Of a stretch of DNA of 64,000 nucleotides, positions 4,301-63,689 are shown one piece after another. Positions within the stretch are counted from its first letter, which is position 1. Each line of letters begins with the position of its first letter. The translations under genes and the position numbers were made by a program. The notes beneath the pieces were generated by a model, which was not told the DNA's origin, ran no database searches, and saw nothing but the letters and a program-made list of their open reading frames with translations. This DNA is from Neoarius graeffei (lineage: Eukaryota > Chordata > Actinopteri > Siluriformes > Ariidae): the NCBI RefSeq assembly GCF_027579695.1, contig NC_083590.1, positions 16,948,446-17,012,445 of the forward strand, written 5' to 3'.

Positions 4301-7300
4301 AGACACAGACAACCATTCACACTCACATTCACACCTACGGTCAATTTAGTGTCACCAGTTAACCTAACCTGCATGTCTTTGGACTGTGGGGGAAACCGGA
4401 GCACCCGGAGGAAACCCACGCGGACACGGGGAGAACATGCAAACTCCGCACAGAAAGGCCCTCGCCGGCCCCGGGGCTCGAACCCAGGACCTTCTTGCTG
4501 TGAGGCGACAGCGCTAACCACTACACCACCGTGCCGCCCTAGGCCGATAAGTCTCATATTTAATTGCATTTAGTTGCCAGTACGAGTCACGATATAAAGT
4601 AAAGTTACGAAAACCGAAAACGTAACTGAATAACACGTTAATTAAGAAATAAAGCAAGTTTAAAAATGACTTCAGTTCTCCTGTAAACTGCTGAAACGTT
4701 TGTGCTTGACCTTGTCGAGGGTTCTGTTCACCTGAAAGCTCGCGCTCCAGTATGGCGTCACTACGTGGGATCCGAGCATGTGACCTCGAGCTGTCTGAAT
4801 TGTCACATGTTTATAAACCACCTTATTTTATATACATGTGCTCCTGGACTCTGACTGCTATGGTTGCTCTCATCTTAAAAGGAGCAAAAGAGTGCGTTTT
4901 GTTTATGTCCTTAGCTATCTTCTTTAACTATAGGAATTCAAGAACTGTTAGTTTCTTGACAACTAAAAATCACATTTTTATCATGCATCACGTTCCTGTC
5001 CAATTTCTTCAGGCGGTCCGTCTGACAGGAGGTGTTTTTATTTACTCGGTTGTCAAAAATGATTTTATTGAAACGAACTAAATGAGAATAGATGGAAGAT
5101 GACCACACACGGACGACTATCTGTCCAAAAGATAACAAAAACGTCACAGATGCTAACACTAGCGCATCCTGTCTCATGTTTTCTTCTCGTTTTATGTCCA
5201 GTTTTGGGATCTTGCCCCTGGAGCCGAGCCCAGGAGACCCCGCCTATCTGCAGAACTACAGTCACAGTGGGACGGGGATGGAGCCGCCTCCACCACCTGG
5301 CCCACCAAAGAAGGTTACTTCCTTAGTCTTGGTTTAATTTGGGTTGTAATCCATGCACATCACCGCATAACCTCACACACTCTCGCACTCCTCTTTGTTC
5401 CTGGTAGACGGTCAGCAGAATCAGTCAGGTGGGGACGAAGTCAGTGTTCGCACAAAGCGGGAACAGCAGAGAGGTTATTCCCAGCCCATTCAATCAGACG
5501 CAGACCACGGCACCACAGACCAGGTGAGCACCTGATTTAAGTGTGATTAAAGTCCATCACTCCGATATTAAACTCTTAAAGCTCCTGGCTGCAAAATGAG
5601 CCGAAGTGCAGTCGATCAAATGACCTGTTTGGGGTTTTTACATTTCCTGATTTGGTTTACACTGGAGCTACGAGGCTAGTGTCGCTAACAAGGCTAATAT
5701 CAGATCTGCTGACGTGACCGAGGACACGGCGTGACTTGATTATTACATAACATGGACGCAAACGGCGCGCCTTTTGGCAGATGCCGCCTTTTTCACGGCT
5801 GTCTGGGGGACTTGTGTGAATCGTGCAGATCCGATGAGTTTTTTTTTTTTTTTGGGGGGTGGGGGGGCGTTGGAGTGTCTGATTATAATTTAATCTGAGT
5901 AAATTCTGTATTAAAATTACTAAATAAGCAAATGCCGTTACAGTCCATGAAACATAGGAAGTATGAGAAGAAAACAGTAAATCAGAAAGCTGCGCACGTA
6001 AAGCCAGTTGGCTGCGCGCCATTATCTGCTGCTGGCTGCACTTCACTGCACGCGCAAGGATTTCCATCAGTCCAACGCAAGTTACGTAATTGGCTTTACG
6101 TGCGCAGCTTTCTGATTTACTGTTTTCTTCTCGTACTTATACTTCCTATGTTTCATGGACTGTAACGGCATTTGCTTATTTAGTAATTTTAATACAGAAT
6201 TTACTCAGATTAAATTATAATCAGACACTCCAACGCCCCCCCCACCCCCCCCCACCCCAAAAAAAAAAAAAAAACCTCATCGGATCTGTGCGATTCACAC
6301 AAGTCCCCCAGACAGCCGTGAAAAAGGCGGCGTCCGCCAAAAGGATGCAAACGGCGCGCCATGACATAAAAATGAACAGAACTTTACTGTGTACAGCAGA
6401 ATGATGCAACCTTACAGGACGGCCATCTTGGACAAACCAGAATCGCGTATTTTTTATTTATTTTTTAATTAAATTTTTTCCCCTGTGGTCTTTTGTGTCA
6501 AAGTTTAAGCTTTAAATATTGAAGGAAAAACTCAAATATCCAGTTTTATGATGTCTGCAAATAAAATTGGATCGAATTGGACTGGGCGTATGAAGAATCG
6601 GTCACGTGTACGAAACGGTTTGACTATTCAGACTTCAGATGCCTTCAGCATGCAGTACTTGTCTTGGCTGTTTGAGTGTGTAGGATAAAATGTATAAACG
6701 AGAGCGTCAGTAACGGTGTATCTCTCTCCGGCCCCGTCGAGTCCAGAAGGAACGATCTAAAGTGCGTGATAAATGTTGGAAGCTATATAGAAGCGATATC
6801 CACCCTAGGAATACCGGCCAGTTTACCAGAAAGAATCCAAAACGGCGAGGAATTGACCAAGAAGAAGTGATTTTTGTTGAACTGCTCATTAAGGCTTAAT
6901 TAGTCCATAACTTCATTAATAATTGTAATGAAGTAAATCTGGGTAGAAGTTCTGTGCACCCGAGGTTCCGCTACCTTCATACCAGAAAGAATCAAAATTG
7001 GTGAAGAACTGAGGGAGAAGAAGCGATCTGTCTGGAAACTGCTCATTAGGGATCGATTAATTACTCTGTATCTTCATTATTAATTGCAGTTATGCAAATT
7101 TGCGTAGAAGCTACGTATATGTAGCAACGACCGGCCTTTTTAAAAGTAGCTGTCGTAGTGTTGTGTAATGTATCAAATTAGAGCGTGAAGATCTGAATTG
7201 GAAGCTTGTTTAATTTTTTGTAAATTTCCCTGCGTCCGAAATCGCTCCCGACTCACTATATAGCGAGGACGCCATTTTGTAGTGCTGTCCGAAACCTTAG

Positions 7301-17300: not shown

Positions 17301-20300
17301 GGCTGCTTCCGCAACGCTATCCGCCTCAACAAGCGCCACTACAATGCCTGGTACGACTGTTAGCGCGATAACAAGGAAGCGACAAACTCACAGGATGGTG
17401 TTTTCTACTTATAGCAGCACTGACTAACGTAAACGCATCATTAAAAAAAAAAACCTAGCAGGAACAGTCACGGGTACGCTTTTGAGACCGTCAGGTCACG
17501 GCATGACTAGCTTGTACTGGTTTCATTAAGGTTCAGGTTTTAAATCAGTTGTTTCTTTTATCATCTTATGACCTCACGACAGTCTTTTATCCCTTACGTT
17601 ATTTGATTTATTGTTACATTTAACCGGTTATAATTTAGGTGTAAACTCGATCCCATTAACCCGTCAACTAGATTATTTACAGGAGAACTGAAGGCATTTT
17701 TAAACTTGCTTTATTTCTTAATTAACGTTATTCAGTTACGTTTTGGGTTTTAGTACCCTTACTGTATATCGTGACTCGTATTGGCAACTAACTGCAATTA
17801 AATCTGATACTTATCGGCCTATTCGGTTTTTATCCGTGTTGAATTTAGTTGGTTTGGTCCACGGCAGGCGTCGCTTATCCGCGCGATCTTCACGAGACTT
17901 GTGTGAGACTTCGAATCGTGAAGTGTCAACCAGGTGTCAGTGCCGCCATTTTGAAAACTGTTTTCCAAACGAAGTATTGCACAAAAACGAGTTGAAATGA
18001 CGATTACTGCCGACTTTTTTCAAACTTTCCTGATCGTTATCAAAACAAACAAAACTTCCAGCTTGATTACGTCAGCATTCGAAAGATGGCGCGCGCGTCT
18101 TTTGACCACCGCTGCGTCCGAAATCGCTCCCGACTCACTATATAGCGCGGACGCATTTTGTAGCGCTGTCCGAAACCTTAGTGAGGATTATTTCCACCCT
18201 ATATAGTGCACTCAAAGTATCCCACAATGCATCACGGAAACTAGCGAACAACGATGGTCACTAACCAAAGCAGTATATCCCATCATGCATTGCGGTCACG
18301 CTGAAAGAAATCAAATTAAAAGTGTGAAATGTGATTTAATAAAAGTCAGCGGCGAAGAAGAAAGAAAGTGTTGAGGCTTGATGTAAAGAAGTGAAAGCTG
18401 CAGGTGCTTTGTATTGATTAATGTGGGAAATGCGCTCAGTATAATATGGATTTATCACAGAAACACACGCATGGATTTATTATTTTGAAACCCAGCAGCC
18501 GACTGATCTGGCACGCTTTAATTGTGCGACAGTAATGACGTAAATACCAGCGCGACGGACGAGTGTCCGAAAGAGGGGTTTCATTTTACCAACGAGCTCG
18601 CTGTATAGTCCTCTATAGAGTAATTCCCTATATAGGGAGTAGGGAGGAGTGAACGAGTGAGCGATTTCAGACACAGGGAACGTTAGCAGATGTCGGTCAC
18701 TTTGATTGATTTCCGCTGTAGTCCTACGATGTCTCGCACAGGTCTCAACGAATCTCGTTTACAGCCGTTGCTTTGCCATATGGACTGATATATTACAGAA
18801 CGTATTTCACACTCATAACTCGCTGTAGCAGCGACAGAATAGCCATCAAACATGCATTCCGATATTTAATAAAATGAGAGAAATAGAATTTTGAAAATAA
18901 AAAAATGTATATATTTGCCTTCAGTTCTCCTTTAATATGCTAATTAGTCAGTGTGTGTGTGTGATCCTCTTTTTCACTAGGTATGGTTTGGGAATGATCT
19001 ACTACAAGCAGGAAAAGTTTAACCTGGCTGAGATTCACTTTAAGAAGGCTTTGAGCATTAACCCCCAGAGCTCTGTGCTCCTCTGTCACATCGGAGTGGT
19101 GAGTGTAACCTCGTAAACCCACACAACACACCAATCTCTTAATCTCCGAGTGTCTGGGGCTCACACTGGTGTACGGGGACGCTTTGGGTATGAGGTGGAT
19201 CTGGATCAGTGGGTGGGATTAACGCTGAAAACCTTTTAATTTTGGATAATTATGCAGAATGTTGTGATGTCATAGTATCTAGCAGTGCTACGTTCACTGG
19301 CAAGAGAAGGGATGGTAAAATTGATGCTTCAGCAGCTAGATCCATCCTTCTTTCCTTCCCTTTCATCAATCTTTTAATCTTTTTAAAAATCAGCAATAGA
19401 ACTATTGTGTGCTTTTTGGTCATACAGTGGTGCTTGAAAGTTTGTGAACCCTTTAGAATTTTCTATATTTCTGCATAAATATGACCTAAAACATCATCAG
19501 ATTTTCACACAAGTCCTAAAAGTAGATAAAGAGAACCCAGTTAAACAAATGAGACAAAAATATTGTACTTGGTCATTTATTTATTGAGGAAAATGATCCA
19601 ATATTACATATCTGTGAGTGGCAAAAGTATGTGAACCTCTAGGATTAGCAGTTAATTTGAAGGTGAAATTAGAGGCAGGTGTTTTCAATCAATGGGATGA
19701 CAATCAGGTGTGAGTGGGCACCCTGTTTTATTTAAAGAACAGGGATCTATCAAAGTCTGATCTTCACAACACATGTTTGTGGAAGTGTATCATGGCATGA
19801 ACAAAGGAGATTTCTGAGGACCTCAGTAAAAACGTTGTTGATGCTCATCAGGCTGGAAAAGGTTACAAAACCATCTCTAAAGAGTTTGGACTCCACCAAT
19901 CCACAGTCAGACAGATTGTGAACAAATGGAGGAAATTCAAGACCATTGTTACCCTCCCCAGGAGTGGTCAACCAACAAAGATCACTCCAAGAGCAAGGCG
20001 TGTAATAGTCGGCAAGGTCACAAAGGACCCCAGGGTAACTTCTAAGCAACTGAAGGCCTCTCTCACATTGGCTAATGTTAATGTTCATGAGTCCACCATC
20101 AGGAGAACACTGAACAACAATGGTGTGCATGGCAGGGTTGCAAGGAGAAAGCCACTGCTCTCCAAAAAGAACATTGCTGCTCGTTTGCAGTTTGCTAAAG
20201 ATCACGTAGACAAGCCAGAAGGCTATTGGAAAAATGTTTTGTGGACGGATGAGACCAAAATAGAACTTTTTGGTTTAAATGAGAAGCGTTATGTTTGGAG

Positions 20301-21078
20301 AAAGGAAAACACTGCATTCCAGCTTAAGAACCTTATCCCATCTGTGAAACATGGTGGTGGTAGTATCATGGTTTGGGCCTGTTTTGCTGCATCTGGGCCA
20401 GGATGGCTTGCCATCATTGATGGAACAATGAATTCTGAATTATACCAGCGAATTCTAAAGGAAAATGTCAGGACATCTGTCCATGAACTGAATATCCAAG
20501 AGAAGGTGGGTCATGCAGCAAGACAACGACCCTAAGCACACAAGTCGTTCTACCAAAGAATGGTTAAAGAAGAATAAAGTTAATGTTTTGGAATGGCCAA
20601 GTCAAAGTCCTGACCTTAATCCAATCGAAATGTTGTGGAAGGACCTGAAGCGAGCAGTTCATGTGAGGAAACCCACCAGCATCCCAGAGTTGAAGCTGTT
20701 CTGTACGGAGGAATGGGCTAAAATTCCTCCAAGCCGGTGTGCAGGACTGATCAACAGTTACCGCAAACGTTTAGTTGCAGTTATTGCTGCACAAGGGGGT
20801 CACACCAGATACTGAAAACAAAGGTTCACATACTTTTGCCACTCACAGATATGTAATATTGGATCATTTTCCTCAATAAATAAATGACCAAGTATAATAT
20901 TTTTGTCTCATTTGTTTAACTGGGTTCTCTTTATCTACTTTGAGGACTTGTGTGAAAATCTGATGATGTTTTAGGTCATATTTATGCAGAAATACAGAAA
21001 ATTCTAAAGGGTTCACAGACTTTCAAGCACCACTGTATGTGTGACCTAGTGTTCTGGTCACAGATATAAAACATAACC

Positions 21079-25793: not shown

Positions 25794-26464
25794 CTGGCCC
25801 GGTGGTGTAGTGGTTAGCGCTGTCGCCTCACAGTAAGAAGGTTCCGGGTTCGAGCCCAGTCGCCGGCGAGGGCCTTACTGTGTGGAGTTTGCATGTTCTC
25901 CCTGTGTCCGCGTGGGTTTCCTCCACAATCCAAAGACATGCGGTTATGTTAATGTGGGGCGGCCTTGGGCTGAGCTGCCCTTGAGCAAGAAGAAACCTTT
26001 ATTCGTCACATGCACAGTGAAATTCATCCTCTGCATTTAACCCATCTGAAGCAGTGAACACACACACACTCAGAGCAGTGGGCAGCCCGGGGAGCAGTCA
26101 GGGGTTCGGTACCTCGCTCAAGGGCACTTCAGCCCAAGGCCGCCCCACGTTGATCTAACTGCACGTCTTTGGACTGTGGAGGAAACCAGAGGACACGGGG
26201 AGAACATACAAACTCCACACAGAAAGGCCCTCGTTGGCCACTGGGCTCAAACCTGGAACCTTCTTGCTGTGAGGCGACCGTGCTGACCACTACCCAAAGT
26301 ACCGAACCCCTGACTGCTCTCCGGGCGCTGTAGTGTGGCTGCCCACTGCTCTGGGTGTGTGCGCGCGCATGTGTGTGTGTTCACTGCTTCAGATGGGTTA
26401 AATGCAGAGGATGAATCTCACTGTGCTTGAAGTGTGCATGTGACGAATAAAGGTTTCTTCTTCC
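25794..26464. mobile_element. Two SINEs in opposite orientation, one inside the other
   Basis: A + strand SINE head (25794-25988, ggtggtgtagtggttagcgc) is interrupted by a minus-strand copy (25989-26296, starting cctttattcgtcacatgcac and ending with the complement of the tRNA-like head). The + strand tail resumes at 26297 and ends gtgacgaataaaggtttc. This subfamily has a different tail from the GATGA-ended SINEs, containing aaatgcagaggatgaatc. Confidence 0.7.
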
Positions 26465-32876: not shown

Positions 32877-34565
32877 GTTGTGGGTCTGTGGATTAATTTT
32901 AGCTTTGTATTTGTGTGTGGTTTCATTGAAGTGTGTGTGTTAGTTGTCGGTCTGTGGATTAGATTTAGTGGTGTGTGAGAGTTGTCGGTCTGTGGATTAG
33001 ATTTAGCGGTGTGTGTGTGTGAGAGTTGTCGGTCTGTGGATTAGATTTAGCGGTGTGTGTGTGAGAGAGTTGTCGGTCTGTGGATTAGATTTAGCGGTGT
33101 GTGTGTGTGTGAGAGTTGTCGGTCTGTGGATTAGATTTAGCGGTGTGTGTGTGAGAGAGTTGTCGGTCTGTGGATTAGATTTAGCAGCGTGTGTGTGAGT
33201 TGTCGGTCTGTGGATTAGATTTAGCAGCGTGTGTGTGAGAGAGTTGTCGGTCTGTGGATTAGATTTAGCGGTGTGTGTGTGTGTGTGTGAGAGTTGTCGG
33301 TCTGTGGATTAGATTTAGCGGTGTGTGTGTGAGAGAGTTGTCGGTCTGTGGATTAGATTTAGCAGCGTGTGTGTGAGTTGTCGGTCTGTGGATTAGATTT
33401 AGCGGCGTGTGTGAGTTGTCGGTCTGTGGATTAGATTTAGCAGCGTGTGTGTGAGTTGTCGGTCTGTGGATTAGATTTAGCAGCGTGTGTGAGAGTTGTC
33501 GGTCTGTGGATTAGATTTAGCGGTGTGTGTGAGAGTTGTCGGTCTGTGGATTAGATTTAGTGGTGTGTGTGAGTTGTCGGTCTGTGGATTAGATTTAGTG
33601 GTGTGTGTGAGTTGTCGGTCTGTGGATTAGATTTAGCGGCGTGTGTGTGAGTTGTCGGTCTGTGGATTAGATTTAGCGGCGTGTGTGTGAGTTGTCGGTC
33701 TGTGGATTAGATTTAGCGGCGTGTGTGTGAGTTGTCGGTCTGTGGATTAGATTTAGCGGCGTGTGTGTGAGTTGTCGGTCTGTGGATTAGATTTAGCGGC
33801 GTGTGTGTGAGTTGTCGGTCTGTGGATTAGATTTAGCGGCGTGTGTGTGAGTTGTCGGTCTGTGGATTAGATTTAGCGGCGTGTGTGTGAGTTGTCGGTC
33901 TGTGGATTAGATTTAGCGGCGTGTGTGTGAGTTGTCGGTCTGTGGATTAGATTTAGCGGCGTGTGCGTGAGTTGTCGGTCTGTGGATTAGATTTAGCGGC
34001 GTGTGTGTGAGTTGTCGGTCTGTGGATTAGATTTAGCGGCGTGTGTGAGAGTTGTCGGTCTGTGGATTAGATTTAGCGGCGTGTGTGTGAGTTGTCGGTC
34101 TGTGGATTAGATTTAGCGGCGTGTGTGTGTGAGTTGTCGGTCTGTGGATTAGATTTAGCGGCGTGTGTGAGAGTTGTCGGTCTGTGGATTAGATTTAGCG
34201 GCGTGTGTGTGAGTTGTCGGTCTGTGGATTAGATTTAGCGGCATGTGTGAGAGTTGTCGGTCTGTGGATTAGATTTAGCGGCGTGTGTGTGAGTTGTCGG
34301 TCTGTGGATTAGATTTAGCGGCGTGTGTGTGTGAGTTGTCGGTCTGTGGATTAGATTTAGCGGCGTGTGTGAGAGTTGTCGGTCTGTGGATTAGATTTAG
34401 CGGCGTGTGTGAGAGTTGTCGGTCTGTGGATTAGATTTAGCGGCGTGTGTGTGAGTTGTCGGTCTGTGGATTAGATTTAGCGGCGTGTGTGTGTGAGTTG
34501 TCGGTCTGTGGATTAGTGTTAGCGGTGTGTGCGCGCGAGTTGTTGGTCTGTGGATTAGTGTTAAT
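32877..34565 (+). repeat. Minisatellite, ~38-bp unit, about 40 copies
   Basis: Tandem units with the invariant core gttgtcggtctgtggattag atttagcgg followed by a variable (GT)n stretch. Outer units are degenerate (ttaattttagctttg at the left, ttagtgttaattg at the right). From about 33590 to 34100 the unit is a nearly invariant 40 bp. Units vary mainly by GT number and by gcggc/gcggt/gcagc. Confidence 0.97.
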
Positions 34566-40902: not shown

Positions 40903-43900
40903 CCACTATAGGAGCTGAGAGTAGGGACAAATTTTTTGAGCCGGAGACACGTTTTTTGGAGCTGAGAGTAGGGAGACACATTTTTAGGAGCTGAGAGTAG
41001 GGACACATTTTTAGGAGCTGAGAGTAGGGACACATTTTTAGGAGCTGAGAGTAGGGACACATTTTTAGGAGCTGAGAGTAGGGACACATTTTTAGGAGCT
41101 GAGAGTAGGGACACATTTTTAGGAGCTGAGAGTAGGGACACATTTTTAGGAGCTGAGAGTAGGGACACATTTTTAGGAGCTGAGAGTAGGGACACGCTTT
41201 TAGGAGCTGAGAGTAGGGACACGCTTTTAGGAGCTGAGAGTAGGGACACGCTTTTAGGAGCTGAGAGTAGGGACACGCTTTTAGGAGCTGAGAGTAGGGA
41301 CACGCTTTTAGGAGCTGAGAGTAGGGACACGCTTTTAGGAGCTGAGAGTAGGGACACGCTTTTAGGAGCTGAGAGTAGGGACACGCTTTTAGGAGCTGAG
41401 AGTAGGGACACGCTTTTAGGAGCTGAGAGTAGGGACACGCTTTTAGGAGCTGAGAGTAGGGACACGCTTTTAGGAGCTGAGAGTAGGGACACGCTTTTAG
41501 GAGCTGAGAGTAGGGACACGCTTTTAGGAGCTGAGAGTAGGGACACGCTTTTAGGAGCTGAGAGTAGGGACACGCTTTTAGGAGCTGAGAGTAGGGACAC
41601 GCTTTTAGGAGCTGAGAGTAGGGACACGCTTTTAGGAGCTGAGAGTAGGGACACGCTTTTAGGAGCTGAGAGTAGGGACACGCTTTTAGGAGCTGAGAGT
41701 AGGGACACGCTTTTAGGAGCTGAGAGTAGGGACACGCTTTTAGGAGCTGAGAGTAGGGACACGCTTTTAGGAGCTGAGAGTAGGGACACGCTTTTAGGAG
41801 CTGAGAGTAGGGACACGCTTTTAGGAGCTGAGAGTAGGGACACGCTTTTAGGAGCTGAGAGTAGGGACACGCTTTTAGGAGCTGAGAGTAGGGACACGCT
41901 TTTAGGAGCTGAGAGTAGGGACACGCTTTTAGGAGCTGAGAGTAGGGACACGCTTTTAGGAGCTGAGAGTAGGGACACGCTTTTAGGAGCTGAGAGTAGG
42001 GACACGCTTTTAGGAGCTGAGAGTAGGGACACGCTTTTAGGAGCTGAGAGTAGGGACACATTTTTTAGGAGCGGAGAGTAGGGACGCATTTTTTAGGAGC
42101 GGAGAGTAGGGACGCATTTTTTAGGAGCGGAGAGTAGGGACGCATTTTTTAGGAGCGGAGAGTAGGGACGCATTTTTTAGGAGCGGAGAGTAGGGACGCA
42201 TTTTTTAGGAGCGGAGAGTAGGGACGCATTTTTTAGGAGCGGAGAGTAGGGACGCATTTTTTAGGAGCGGAGAGTAGGGACGCATTTTTTAGGAGCGGAG
42301 AGTAGGGACGCATTTTTTAGGAGCGGAGAGTAGGGACGCATTTTTTAGGAGCGGAGAGTAGGGACGCATTTTTTAGGAGCGGAGAGTAGGGACGCATTTT
42401 TTAGGAGCGGAGAGTAGGGACGCATTTTTTAGGAGCGGAGAGTAGGGACGCGTTTTTTAGGAGCGGAGAGTAGGGACGCGTTTTTTAGGAGCGGAGAGTA
42501 GGGACGCGTTTTTTAGGAGCGGAGAGTAGGGACGCGTTTTTTAGGAGCGGAGAGTAGGGACGCGCTTTTTAGGAGCGGAGAGTAGGGACGCGCTTTTTAG
42601 GAGCGGAGAGTAGGGACGCGCTTTTTAGGAGCGGAGAGTAGGGACGCGCTTTTTAGGAGCGGAGAGTAGGGACGCGCTTTTTAGGAGCGGAGAGTAGGGA
42701 CGCGCTTTTAGGAGCGGAGAGTAGGGACGCGCTTTTAGGAGCGGAGAGTAGGGACGCGCGCTTTTAGGAGCGGAGAGTAGGGACGCGCGCTTTTAGGAGC
42801 GGAGAGTAGGGACGCGCGCTTTTAGGAGCGGAGAGTAGGGACGCGCGCTTTTAGGAGCGGAGAGTAGGGACGCGCGCTTTTAGGAGCGGAGAGTAGGGAC
42901 GCGCGCTTTTAGGAGCGGAGAGTAGGGACGCGCGCTTTTAGGAGCGGAGAGTAGGGACGCGCGCTTTTAGGAGCGGAGAGTAGGGACGCGCGCTTTTAGG
43001 AGCGGAGAGTAGGGACGCGCGCTTTTAGGAGCGGAGAGTAGGGACGCGCGCTTTTAGGAGCGGAGAGTAGGGACGCGCGCTTTTAGGAGCGGAGAGTAGG
43101 GACGCGCGCTTTTAGGAGCGGAGAGTAGGGACGCGCGCTTTTAGGAGCGGAGAGTAGGGACGCGCGCTTTTAGGAGCGGAGAGTAGGGACGCGCGCTTTT
43201 AGGAGCGGAGAGTAGGGGGACGCGCGCTTTTAGGAGCGGAGAGTAGGGACGCGCGCTTTTAGGAGCGGAGAGTAGGGACGCGCGCTTTTAGGAGCGGAGA
43301 GTAGGGACGCGCGCTTTTAGGAGCGGAGAGTAGGGACGCGCGCTTTTAGGAGCGGAGAGTAGGGACGCGCGCTTTTAGGAGCGGAGAGTAGGGACGCGCG
43401 CTTTTAGGAGCGGAGAGTAGGGACGCGCGCTTTTAGGAGCGGAGAGTAGGGACGCGCGCTTTTAGGAGCGGAGAGTAGGGACGCGCGCTTTTAGGAGCGG
43501 AGAGTAGGGACGCGCGCTTTTAGGAGCGGAGAGTAGGGGGACGCGCGCTTTTAGGAGCGGAGAGTAGGGGGACGCGCGCTTTTAGGAGCGGAGAGTAGGG
43601 GGACGCGCGCTTTTAGGAGCGGAGAGTAGGGGGACGCGCGCTTTTAGGAGCGGAGAGTAGGGGGACGCGCGCTTTTAGGAGCGGAGAGTAGGGGGACGCG
43701 CGCTTTTAGGAGCGGAGAGTAGGGGGACGCGCGCTTTTAGGAGCGGAGAGTAGGGGGACGCGCGCTTTTAGGAGCGGAGAGTAGGGGGACGCGCGCTTTT
43801 AGGAGCGGAGAGTAGGGGGACGCGCGCTTTTAGGAGCGGAGAGTAGGGGGACGCGCGCTTTTAGGAGCGGAGAGTAGGGGGACGCGCGCTTTTAGGAGCG

Positions 43901-46077: not shown

Positions 46078-46505
46078 CAGCGTGCCTTTTGGCGGATGCC
46101 GCCTTTTTCACGGCTGAATCGCGCAGATCCAATTTTTTTTTTGGGGGGGGGGGGGTGTTGGAGTGTCTGATTATAATTTCAAAGTAAATTCTGTATTAAA
46201 GTTACTAAATAAGCAAATCCGTTAGTTCATGAAACAGGAAGTATAAGGATGAGAAAAAAAACTGTTTAAATTGGGAAGCTGCGCACATTTGCGCAGCTTC
46301 CCGATTTAAACTGTTTTTTTTTCTCATCCTTATACTTCCTGTTTCATGGACTGTAACGGATTTGCTTATTTAGTAACTTTAATACAGAATTTACTTTGAA
46401 ATTATAATCAGACACTCCAACCCCCCCCCCCCCCCCCCCCCAAAAAAAAATTGGATCTGCGCGATTCAGCCGTGAAAAAGGCGGCATCCGCCAAAAGGCA
46501 CGCTG
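46078..46505. mobile_element. Fold-back element F2, nearly perfect palindrome
   Basis: Arms of about 205 bp run from agcgtgccttttggcgg to its complement at 46480-46503, centred at about 46292. Only a few arm mismatches (for example ttagttcatg against ttacagtcc). Contains G and C runs of more than 12 bases in the two arms. Youngest-looking of the three F copies. Confidence 0.88.
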
Positions 46506-61187: not shown

Positions 61188-62611
61188 TTTAAGGTGATTT
61201 TTATACATGGGACAACCAATTAGAGCAACAGACAATTGACAACAACCAACTTTCAAAAAAAAAAAAAAAATCATGAGCTGCTCATCACTTTTAACTTAAC
61301 GCGAGAGAGCTGATGTTATCCCTGCATAGCTAGCGATTAACTTTTCAGCTAACTATGTTAGCAAAAACCACCGCTAGTTAGTGAAATCCCATTCCGTCTC
61401 TATGGAGCGGTGGTTAGCGAACGCCGGTTTATGTTTAGCTGAAAGAAATCCGTGTCTGTTGGTTTTCTCAGCATTTGCTGAGGTAAATTCACCACTTTGG
61501 GTTTGCACACAACTCACCGGCGTAAAAAGATAGCAGTTTGTCTTTGCTCCGCTGCCGGAGACGCCGCCATCTTTGTTGGAAATTTCAGAAGCTCTCTGGT
61601 CATGTGATTTGCTGCTAGCACTCTGATTGGATGATCTTACACAGTTCAGATTGAGCAACATCATTTCTATTTCAGTGGGAAAGTGTCGAAGCACAGTTAC
61701 CCGGCAACATCGCCCAAAAAGTTGCCCTGTGTCCCATCAGCTTTAGGGATTTTATTCCCAGATCATCACGACAGGTCTGAGCTTAACGCTTCTGTACAGG
61801 ACGCTCCGAATCACGTTTCCTTGTAGCTCTTGTTGATGTCTTTCAGCTCAGAACACTTGACACAGTGATAAAGTGGCGTGCCAGGGTTGATAGGAAATGA
61901 TCTGAGTGATGTCATCGTCATCCAGTGGGAGCAGCGTGTGCTGATGTGGCGGATGATAACGCTGGCAGTTTGTTCAGAGAGTCAGAGCTCCAGCTGAATG
62001 TAATGCCACGCCGGATGCGTTCAGGGTAACGTATACGAGCGCAACGCTGGGGTTCTCGGCCTGAAAGCAGCTTCATGTTTGTGCTTTTCATGAATTGTGA
62101 TTGGTCAGGAGGTGTTGATTAGTTTTCTGTAACGGAGGCTCTGATGGTGGTGACGGATACAAAGGTAACTCGCAGCTTTAACGCTCGAATGCATTACTGT
62201 TCATTCTGTGTCAGAGGTAAAGCTGTAACTCAGGACTGAGGAGGTCGCGTGGTAACACGGCAAGCGAGAACAGGGCGTTGCAGATGTTCCACAGCAGCTA
62301 TAAGTGGACTAAAAAAACCTTTTTTTAAAAATATGTAATATCTTGAAAGTGTGTGTGGTATAAGTGGAATAAAACACTGTGCCATGGGTCGTGCTGTTTA
62401 TAAAAGAAATAACTCTTGATGAAGCGGAGTTATCGCTGCCACTCCGAAGTTGATTAATTTCCCGTAAGGGTGTGACGTAACTTTATAGAGATTTTTATTC
62501 CTTTTCTCAGTGTATCATAAAGCTAAATGCTTTGAAATATCATATTTTTGTCACGTTGCCCACCTTTAGTCTCAAGTCTTTTTTTGTGAAATAAAGAAAC
62601 CTACTATATAG
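61188..62611. other. Non-coding stretch, nothing recognised
   Basis: No coding exon or mobile element recognised in this stretch up to the hAT-like element. Confidence 0.4.
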
Positions 62612-63633
62612 TAGGGATGTTGACCGTTTGACCGGTGGTTGACCGAATCAACGTCAACCGGTTAATTTTTTTTTTTGGTTGTCGGTTAAAAAAAAAAAAA
62701 TCAATCGTTTTGGAGCGGAGGACTTGGAATTCCATGTTGTAAACGCTTGGGGCATGCCATGCGGTGTAAGGACGACAGCTGACAAATCAGAAACACCCAT
62801 TCAGTCATGTCCCGCCCCAGTTAAAGACAGCTGACAAATCAGAAACACCCATTCAGTCATGTCCCGCCCAGCTGCCACTCGGCGAAAGAAAAGTGTAGAC
62901 ACAGGCTTTTTAGCTTACAAATTACTGTGGTTTTTTTTTTTTTTTAATTATTATTAGAAGGCACATGGAGTTTAGTCCTGCCTTGGCCAGTGCATTCTGA
63001 AAGTATGTTTCGGTCTGTAGCCAACAATTCATGTTATTGCAGATCAGATCTCTCCACACAAACTAAAGGCGCAGATGCCGACTTTTTTTTTTAATCGCGC
63101 AGATCCGTTTTGTTTTTTTTTGGGGGGGGGGGGGGCGTTGGAGTGTCTGTGATTTCAAGGTGGACTCTGTATTAAAAGTACTAAATAGGCGGGTGCCGTT
63201 GCAGTCCATGAGGCGTGGGGGGTGTGGGAGGAGGGCAGTGGATCGGGGGGCTGCACGCATTTGCGCGGAAGCTGCGTACATTAAATTTTGCGCGGCTTCG
63301 GTGCAGGCGTGCGCGGCTTTCTGATTTGCTGTTTTTTTCTCGTGCCTGTACTTCCTGTGTTTCGTGGACTGTGGCGGCATGTGGTTGCAGAATTTGCTTT
63401 GATGAAGTTGTGGTCGGACGCTCCAACGCCCCCCCCCCCCCCCCCTTGGGAAAGGAAGGTCGGATCTGCGTGATTCAGCCGTGGAGAGGGCGGCATCCGC
63501 CAAAAGGCGCGCTGCTTGCATCCCTGTAATAATTCCAATTCTAGAATTTTAAACTCGTAGGTTAACCGACTTTAACCAGCTAATGAGGCTCGGTGGTCGG
63601 CAAAGATTTTTTTTTTAGTTTTCGCCATCCCTA
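62612..63633. mobile_element. hAT-like element enclosing fold-back F3
   Basis: The left end tagggatgttgaccg and right end cgccatcccta are inverted copies. Exact 8-bp duplication ctatatag at 62604-62611 and 63634-63641 (the duplicated site is itself palindromic). A 62-bp tandem duplication around agacagctgacaaatcagaa lies at 62772-62868. No transposase. Confidence 0.82.
63063..63525. mobile_element. Fold-back element F3 with strand-specific A-to-G substitutions
   Basis: Third copy of the fold-back family (compare 5757-6360 and 46078-46505). Shared landmarks are ggagtgtctg, cagtccatga, gctttctgattt and ccgccaaaaggcgcgctgc. On the + strand most A residues of both arms are G while T residues are kept. 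At 63210-63254 aligned to 5949-5993, 18 of 23 adenines are G and the other 22 bases are unchanged. Flanking hAT sequence has ordinary A content. Confidence 0.85.
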
Positions 63634-63689
63634 CTATATAGTCACAGTAATTTGCGCTAACTGACCTTTGTCAATTAAAAAAAAAAAAA

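Follow-up and report, generated by a model that had tools for sequence, protein, structure and literature searches.

A fold-back hairpin at the core of a hAT-type MITE has undergone near-pure A-to-G substitution on one strand. The change depends on base pairing and on the 5' neighbour of each adenosine, is confined to the hairpin, is missing from unedited copies that bear the same deletion, and was followed by spread of the element with ordinary decay. We consider it probable (roughly 0.78) that a folded transcript of this MITE was hyperedited by an ADAR and copied back into DNA, and that the edited MITE was then multiplied by transposition.

The window copy of the hairpin, F3 (63063-63525; the window is the whole stretch of 64,000 nucleotides analyzed here), lies within a MITE of 1022 bp (1.02 kb) at 62612-63633 on the plus strand. 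This MITE has short terminal inverted repeats, TAGGGATG on the left and CATCCCTA on the right, and is bordered by an 8-bp target-site duplication, CTATATAG, at 62604-62611 and 63634-63641; on the basis of the duplication and the ends we take it to belong to the hAT superfamily. The left arm of F3 occupies 63063-63271 and the right arm 63286-63525, both on the plus strand. The right arm has a 12-nt deletion, which is further altered in the window copy, and the left-arm segment that it would have paired with (63173-63184, plus strand; TAAAATTACTAA in the founder) is therefore unpaired. The sole listed stop-to-stop frame of at least 120 amino acids in the MITE crosses the hairpin (63063-63548, minus strand). 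Two further fold-backs of the same hairpin family, F1 (5757-6360) and F2 (46078-46505), are unedited, and the hAT part of the MITE has no match around either of them. The ends of F1 (5757-5774 and 6343-6360) form a direct repeat, exact over 14 bp and about 18 bp long by eye; in F2 and F3 the right end has the inverted form, as if the right terminal segment of F1 had been flipped.

For the alignment of F3 with F1 and F2, A and G were treated as one letter, which kept an A-to-G change from biasing the result. Over 282 aligned columns, F3 departs from the F1/F2 majority by A>G at 44/91 positions, compared with T>C at 2/79, C>T at 1/60 and G>A at 0/52 (Fisher test of A>G against T>C, p = 9e-13), and the two arms behave alike (left 23/46, right 21/45). 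The A-to-G sites with F1/F2 support, 50 in number, span 63149-63488 on the plus strand. The original prediction had reported 18 of 23 A changed to G in 63210-63254 with no other difference from F1, and, for the 70 bases starting at 63311, eight A>G together with single C>T and T>C changes; both counts are confirmed in the alignment. Its wider claim of a near-pure, strand-specific change also holds, T>C being almost absent in F3 and in the larger set of copies described below. Each new G had furthermore been said to face the T of the opposite arm: the arm-to-arm pairs of F3 include 59 G.T and 4 A.C, whereas the 24 other inverted-repeat pairs in the window, F1 and F2 arms included, give a total of 33 G.T and 21 A.C. 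In predicted folds of the plus-strand RNA, G:U pairs number 59 in F3, 7 in F1 and 3 in F2.

A strand-asymmetry scan of the window (509 intervals) placed two of its 15 top values on F3 and 13 in two minisatellites, and no other hyperedited hairpin appeared among these 15. The minisatellites, at 33015-34558 (38 copies of 40 bp) and 40946-42500 (57 copies of 27 bp), both have a strong strand bias in predicted RNA folding. Two pairs of inverted-repeat arms at 25807-26293 display a mild G.T excess (12 G.T vs 5 A.C) that is too weak for them to be called edited. Elsewhere in the window, inverted repeats of 218 nt at 19421-21039 enclose a reading frame (19801-20535) that, by eye, presumably resembles a Tc1/mariner transposase, and another reading frame is one that we take to be CDC27.

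To collect copies, we searched the genome (2.34 Gb, 38 contigs) with F3. This search gave 1327 candidates, of which the best 40, F3 among them, were scored; being the top matches to an edited query, these cannot be used to deduce what share of the family is edited. The other 39 match all or nearly all of F3 with 87-91% identity, and all 39, once fetched, proved to have the hAT sequence of the MITE around the hairpin, a few of them being rearranged or incomplete. Their consensus has G at 47 of the 50 changed sites of F3 and A at 47 of the 47 unchanged ones, while each single copy has G at 42-49 of the 50 sites. Since the 39 other copies share the A-to-G state, the change was already present in their founder. 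Collecting the copies and building a consensus, as the original prediction had proposed, thus yielded 40 loci that agree on the A-to-G state; its ADAR-type reading is supported by these data, except that the event is not private to the F3 locus. Only two A>G sites of F3, 63151 and 63384, are private to the window copy, and a third, 63233, is split among the copies (19 G, 19 A). Hairpins and long G/C runs are hard to sequence, which would speak for an artefact of sequencing, base calling or assembly, but here 40 loci, found in both orientations of the genome, agree at the level of single sites, and unedited hairpins of this family, 35 in number, have just 1-9 plus-strand G:U pairs. We regard such an artefact as extremely improbable.

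Target-site duplications of 8 bp matching at 7-8 of 8 positions flank 30 of the 40 edited copies, the window copy included, and duplications matching at 7/8 or better flank 15 of the 27 unedited MITE copies presented below; these counts come from an automatic cut, except for the window copy, which was delimited by hand, and the remaining copies are truncated, degenerate or unparsed. The divergence of the edited copies, the window copy again included, from their consensus is 2.5% for the hairpin and 2.4% for the flanks. Later changes per site in the hairpin amount to 2.6% for C>T, 2.7% for G>A, 0.44% for A>G and 0.55% for T>C, and in the flanks to 1.0% for A>G and 0.8% for T>C. The shared G state, followed by decay without an excess of A>G, indicates that the change preceded the amplification and then ceased. 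When the founder hairpin is compared with F1/F2 over 318 chosen columns (single-base runs, the apex and the outer left end being excluded), the substitutions are A>G 49/99, T>C 0/91, C>T 0/64 and G>A 1/64, with four further changes of other kinds, all near indels. Three additional copies (L070-L072), called edited from their G:U count and MITE match and not by site comparison, have 52-56 G:U pairs on the plus strand and 4-9 on the other.

The edited copies fall into two partly linked sub-lineages of similar size, which differ at the three sites 63233, 63309 and 63518, where the window copy has G, as well as in a column inserted ahead of 63148. We prefer one event with later mutations to two events as the origin of these sub-lineages, because two separate events would need to have 47 sites in common. 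In the outer left arm of the edited consensus, T's have replaced a CACGGC block at MITE consensus positions 492-497 (roughly 63080-63092 in the window) and so form a stretch of some 12 T; the right-arm partner of the block is unchanged apart from A-to-G. A-to-G editing does not explain this block.

We then used the inferred unedited hairpin as a query, which led to 7 copies of this MITE whose hairpin is unedited. An unedited copy, L061, also served as a query; 40 places were scored and 20 of them fetched. The resulting unedited set of 27 (7+20) includes L060, which is without its right end, and L062, L063 and L066, which are without much of the left, and excludes the rearranged MITEs L057 and L065 as well as L064, L067-L069, L073 and L074, which consist of the hairpin only. 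Each of the 27 has G at 0-3 of the 56 sites that are changed in the edited copies. Between the edited and unedited consensus sequences the hairpin differs by A>G at 56/121, T>C at 1/115, C>T at 3/89 and G>A at 0/83, along with 11 other changes, 6 of which make up the CACGGC-to-T block. This comparison drops 99 of 1035 columns, 71 for having fewer than 10 copies and 28 for less than 70% agreement. In the two hAT flanks combined, A>G occurs at 4/144 and T>C at 1/165, and 3 of the 4 flank A>G fall in an indel-rich block (284-295). Restricted to the first 7 unedited copies, with more masking, the analysis gives A>G 51/109 and T>C 1/99 in the hairpin, A>G 2/87 and T>C 1/89 in the left flank, and A>G 0/24 in the right flank. 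With A>G near nil in the flanks, the change stops at the hairpin, as had been predicted, and does so by comparison with unedited copies of the very same MITE.

The direction of the change follows from the same set. Two findings would have spoken for another history, a G ancestral to all copies or T-to-C changes in equal number. F1, F2 and the 27 unedited MITEs all have A, and the opposite hairpin arm has T, which led us to reject an ancestral G; in the full comparison hardly any T>C is seen.

The copies form two classes, edited or unedited, with no intermediate among the 67 compared by site. Nine unedited copies (L085-L090 and L061-L063) are, like the founder, without the 12-nt segment of the right arm, and its left-arm partner is exact in 8 of them and altered by one base in the ninth. 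The deletion thus existed without the A-to-G change. A tree built on the flanks of edited and unedited copies left their branching order unresolved.

These data also bear on the idea that ordinary mutations accumulated stepwise under selection for a foldable plus-strand RNA, A:U to G:U being tolerated. Such selection would accommodate the fact that 43 of the 50 changed sites are paired, every one with T, when the reverted window copy is folded, and that the plus-strand RNA of the founder is predicted still to fold (-297 kcal/mol, compared with -169 kcal/mol for the minus strand). It would equally permit C>T (G:C to G:U), which is found at 0/64 sites against F1/F2 and at 3/89 against the unedited consensus, all three within one replaced block; moreover, the 67 copies include no intermediates, and A>G has little part in the later decay, which runs through C>T and G>A. 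We judge this explanation very unlikely.

The dependence of the change on structure was analyzed with the consensus of the 9 deletion-bearing unedited copies, which approximates the pre-edit sequence; it is not the exact substrate, as it retains a 6-nt left-arm segment that is missing from the founder and that F1 retains too. This consensus contains 135 A, of which 127 are comparable and 60 became G. On its fold, 58 of 105 paired A were changed compared with 2 of 22 unpaired ones (p = 9e-5), and the bulge facing the 12-nt deletion had 0/7 A changed. Sorted by 5' neighbour, the paired A changed are 17/23 after T, 28/44 after A, 10/20 after C and 3/18 after G (rank permutation p = 2e-4). The original prediction had noted fewer changes after a 5' G in a block of 45 bases, and this is borne out by the larger data (3/18 vs 55/87 for the rest, p = 4e-4). 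By 3' neighbour the counts are 12/18 before G, 11/15 before C, 23/42 before A and 12/30 before T, a preference that is not clearly ADAR-like.

With the founder's own reverted sequence the effect of pairing is weaker (paired 47/85 vs unpaired 2/14, p = 0.008), and one of the two changed unpaired A's sits in a right-arm bulge created by the 6-nt gap. The 12-nt bulge is again spared (0/7, compared with 45/71 for the core), and A's preceded by G are again changed less often (4/13 vs 41/58 for the others, p = 0.01). When the 12-nt partner is restored in silico, the bulge would pair. For the window copy, the contrast between paired and unpaired A's has p = 0.03, and 0/9 A are changed in its larger loop vs 46/67. 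Along the hairpin, A>G is sparsest in the outer arms (0/10 on the left, 3/16 on the right), and the inner left arm and apex are densely changed (25/34).

ADAR edits long hairpin RNA up to a ceiling of about 50% and favours 5' neighbours in the order U>A>C>G. The restriction to one strand, the dependence on pairing, a spared bulge specific to this molecule, the change of roughly 50% of the paired A's and the order of 5' neighbours together match the expected action of ADAR on a long hairpin RNA. A 5' T or A would also be favoured by error-prone DNA synthesis during repair, if a polymerase made A>G at WA hotspots on one strand. This is a very unlikely source of the pattern: about 50% of the paired A's and almost nothing else changed, and unpaired bulge A's that follow T or A were spared. 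For the reasons given with each, artefact, stepwise drift under structural selection and polymerase error were all set aside.

Direct deamination of dA on one DNA strand, either by ADAR on an RNA:DNA hybrid or by an enzyme on an extruded single-stranded DNA hairpin, would, once fixed by replication, likewise yield one-strand A>G. Two reports describe ADARs as deaminating dA in the DNA strand of a hybrid (PMC12599245) and ADAR2 as active at DNA:RNA hybrids near breaks (PMC8448848). In a hybrid, however, the segment of the 12-nt bulge would be as paired as the remainder, yet none of its 7 A changed, and the contrast between unpaired (2/22) and paired (58/105) A's would not be expected. A cruciform would expose both strands equally, which is at odds with T>C at 1/115, and to our knowledge no enzyme deaminates dA in such a DNA hairpin. 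We therefore consider direct deamination of DNA unlikely; the unedited bulge points to an RNA folded on itself rather than to an RNA:DNA hybrid.

Under the proposed editing of a folded transcript, a MITE with a fold-back whose arms measure about 200 bases would have been transcribed from its plus strand. The transcript of a copy lacking the 12 nt in its right arm would have formed a hairpin interrupted by a 12-nt bulge; in what was probably a single burst, ADAR would have deaminated some 50% of the paired adenosines, sparing the bulge and most unpaired A's. For the change to become heritable, the edited RNA must have passed into DNA. This could have happened by retrocopying of a surrounding transcript, in which case the whole MITE would have been inside, its hAT ends carried along and its mobility kept, or by use of the edited RNA as a template for repair at the locus, as in RNA-templated break repair. 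Because its hAT ends lie outside the hairpin and are unedited, the edited MITE could still have been moved by a hAT transposase, and would thus have founded a subfamily of many copies of which the window copy is one member. We found no retrocopy scar (poly-A, LINE-type duplication or lost intron), and the founder locus was not located; spread by transposition would have left behind that locus, where retrocopy marks would lie. Around F3 the only repeat of at least 7 is AAAGGCGC, whose left copy is also present in unedited MITEs, so that it is not a mark of hairpin insertion.

More tentatively, a class II lineage may have passed through RNA, with an ADAR-edited MITE transcript returned to the germline genome; with some 50-60 A:T pairs of its hairpin converted to G.T mismatches, it may have lost the near-perfect double-stranded structure of DNA and antisense RNA, escaped silencing or instability triggered by the hairpin and been amplified for that reason. 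If true, RNA editing would be a source of new transposon subfamilies. A-to-I editing is generally regarded as confined to RNA, retroviruses excepted. Here a deamination imprint bearing most of the checkable marks of ADAR is present in chromosomal DNA, is inherited and belonged to the founder of a transposon subfamily. As a single genome holds the edited copies, the unedited copies with the deletion and the predicted substrate, a flow from RNA to DNA in a class II element becomes testable.

Among the matches listed in searches of open-licence literature, we found no report of a genomic A-to-I imprint in a DNA transposon family. Rfam gave nothing at gathering scores, one exact pattern searched in each of the viral and prokaryote collections had 0 matches, and a protein search with an F1 reading frame gave none at E 0.01.

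Several known systems share parts of this picture. RNA-templated repair of double-strand breaks offers a possible route for transcript sequence into a chromosome; PMC12065846 demonstrates it by means of reporters and intron loss in human cells, not of edited transposon hairpins. Clustered A-to-G hypermutation, linked to ADAR in PMC8586724, is known from the retroviruses RAV-1 (Felder et al. 1994) and avian leukosis virus (Hajjar and Linial 1995), both cited there. These viruses have their own reverse transcriptase, whereas the MITE has none, is part of the host genome and multiplied later. The RAV-1 case is said to concern a hairpin region. APOBEC-edited retrotransposons likewise preserve the imprint of a deaminase in genomic repeats; in PMC2873906 the enzyme is a cytidine deaminase causing G-to-A on retroelement cDNA, while the MITE is a DNA transposon with a pairing-dependent A-to-G change. 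In zebrafish, where repeat editing among six adult tissues is highest in ovary and testis and where depletion of a 5' G at edited sites is stated, the RNA of one copy of ANGEL, a palindromic hAT element, is edited at 62 of 63 A (PMC8096273). ANGEL thus resembles the present element in being a palindromic repeat of hAT type, and heavy editing of its transcript is documented; unlike here, the change is reported there in RNA, whereas in the MITE it is found in the DNA of a whole subfamily.
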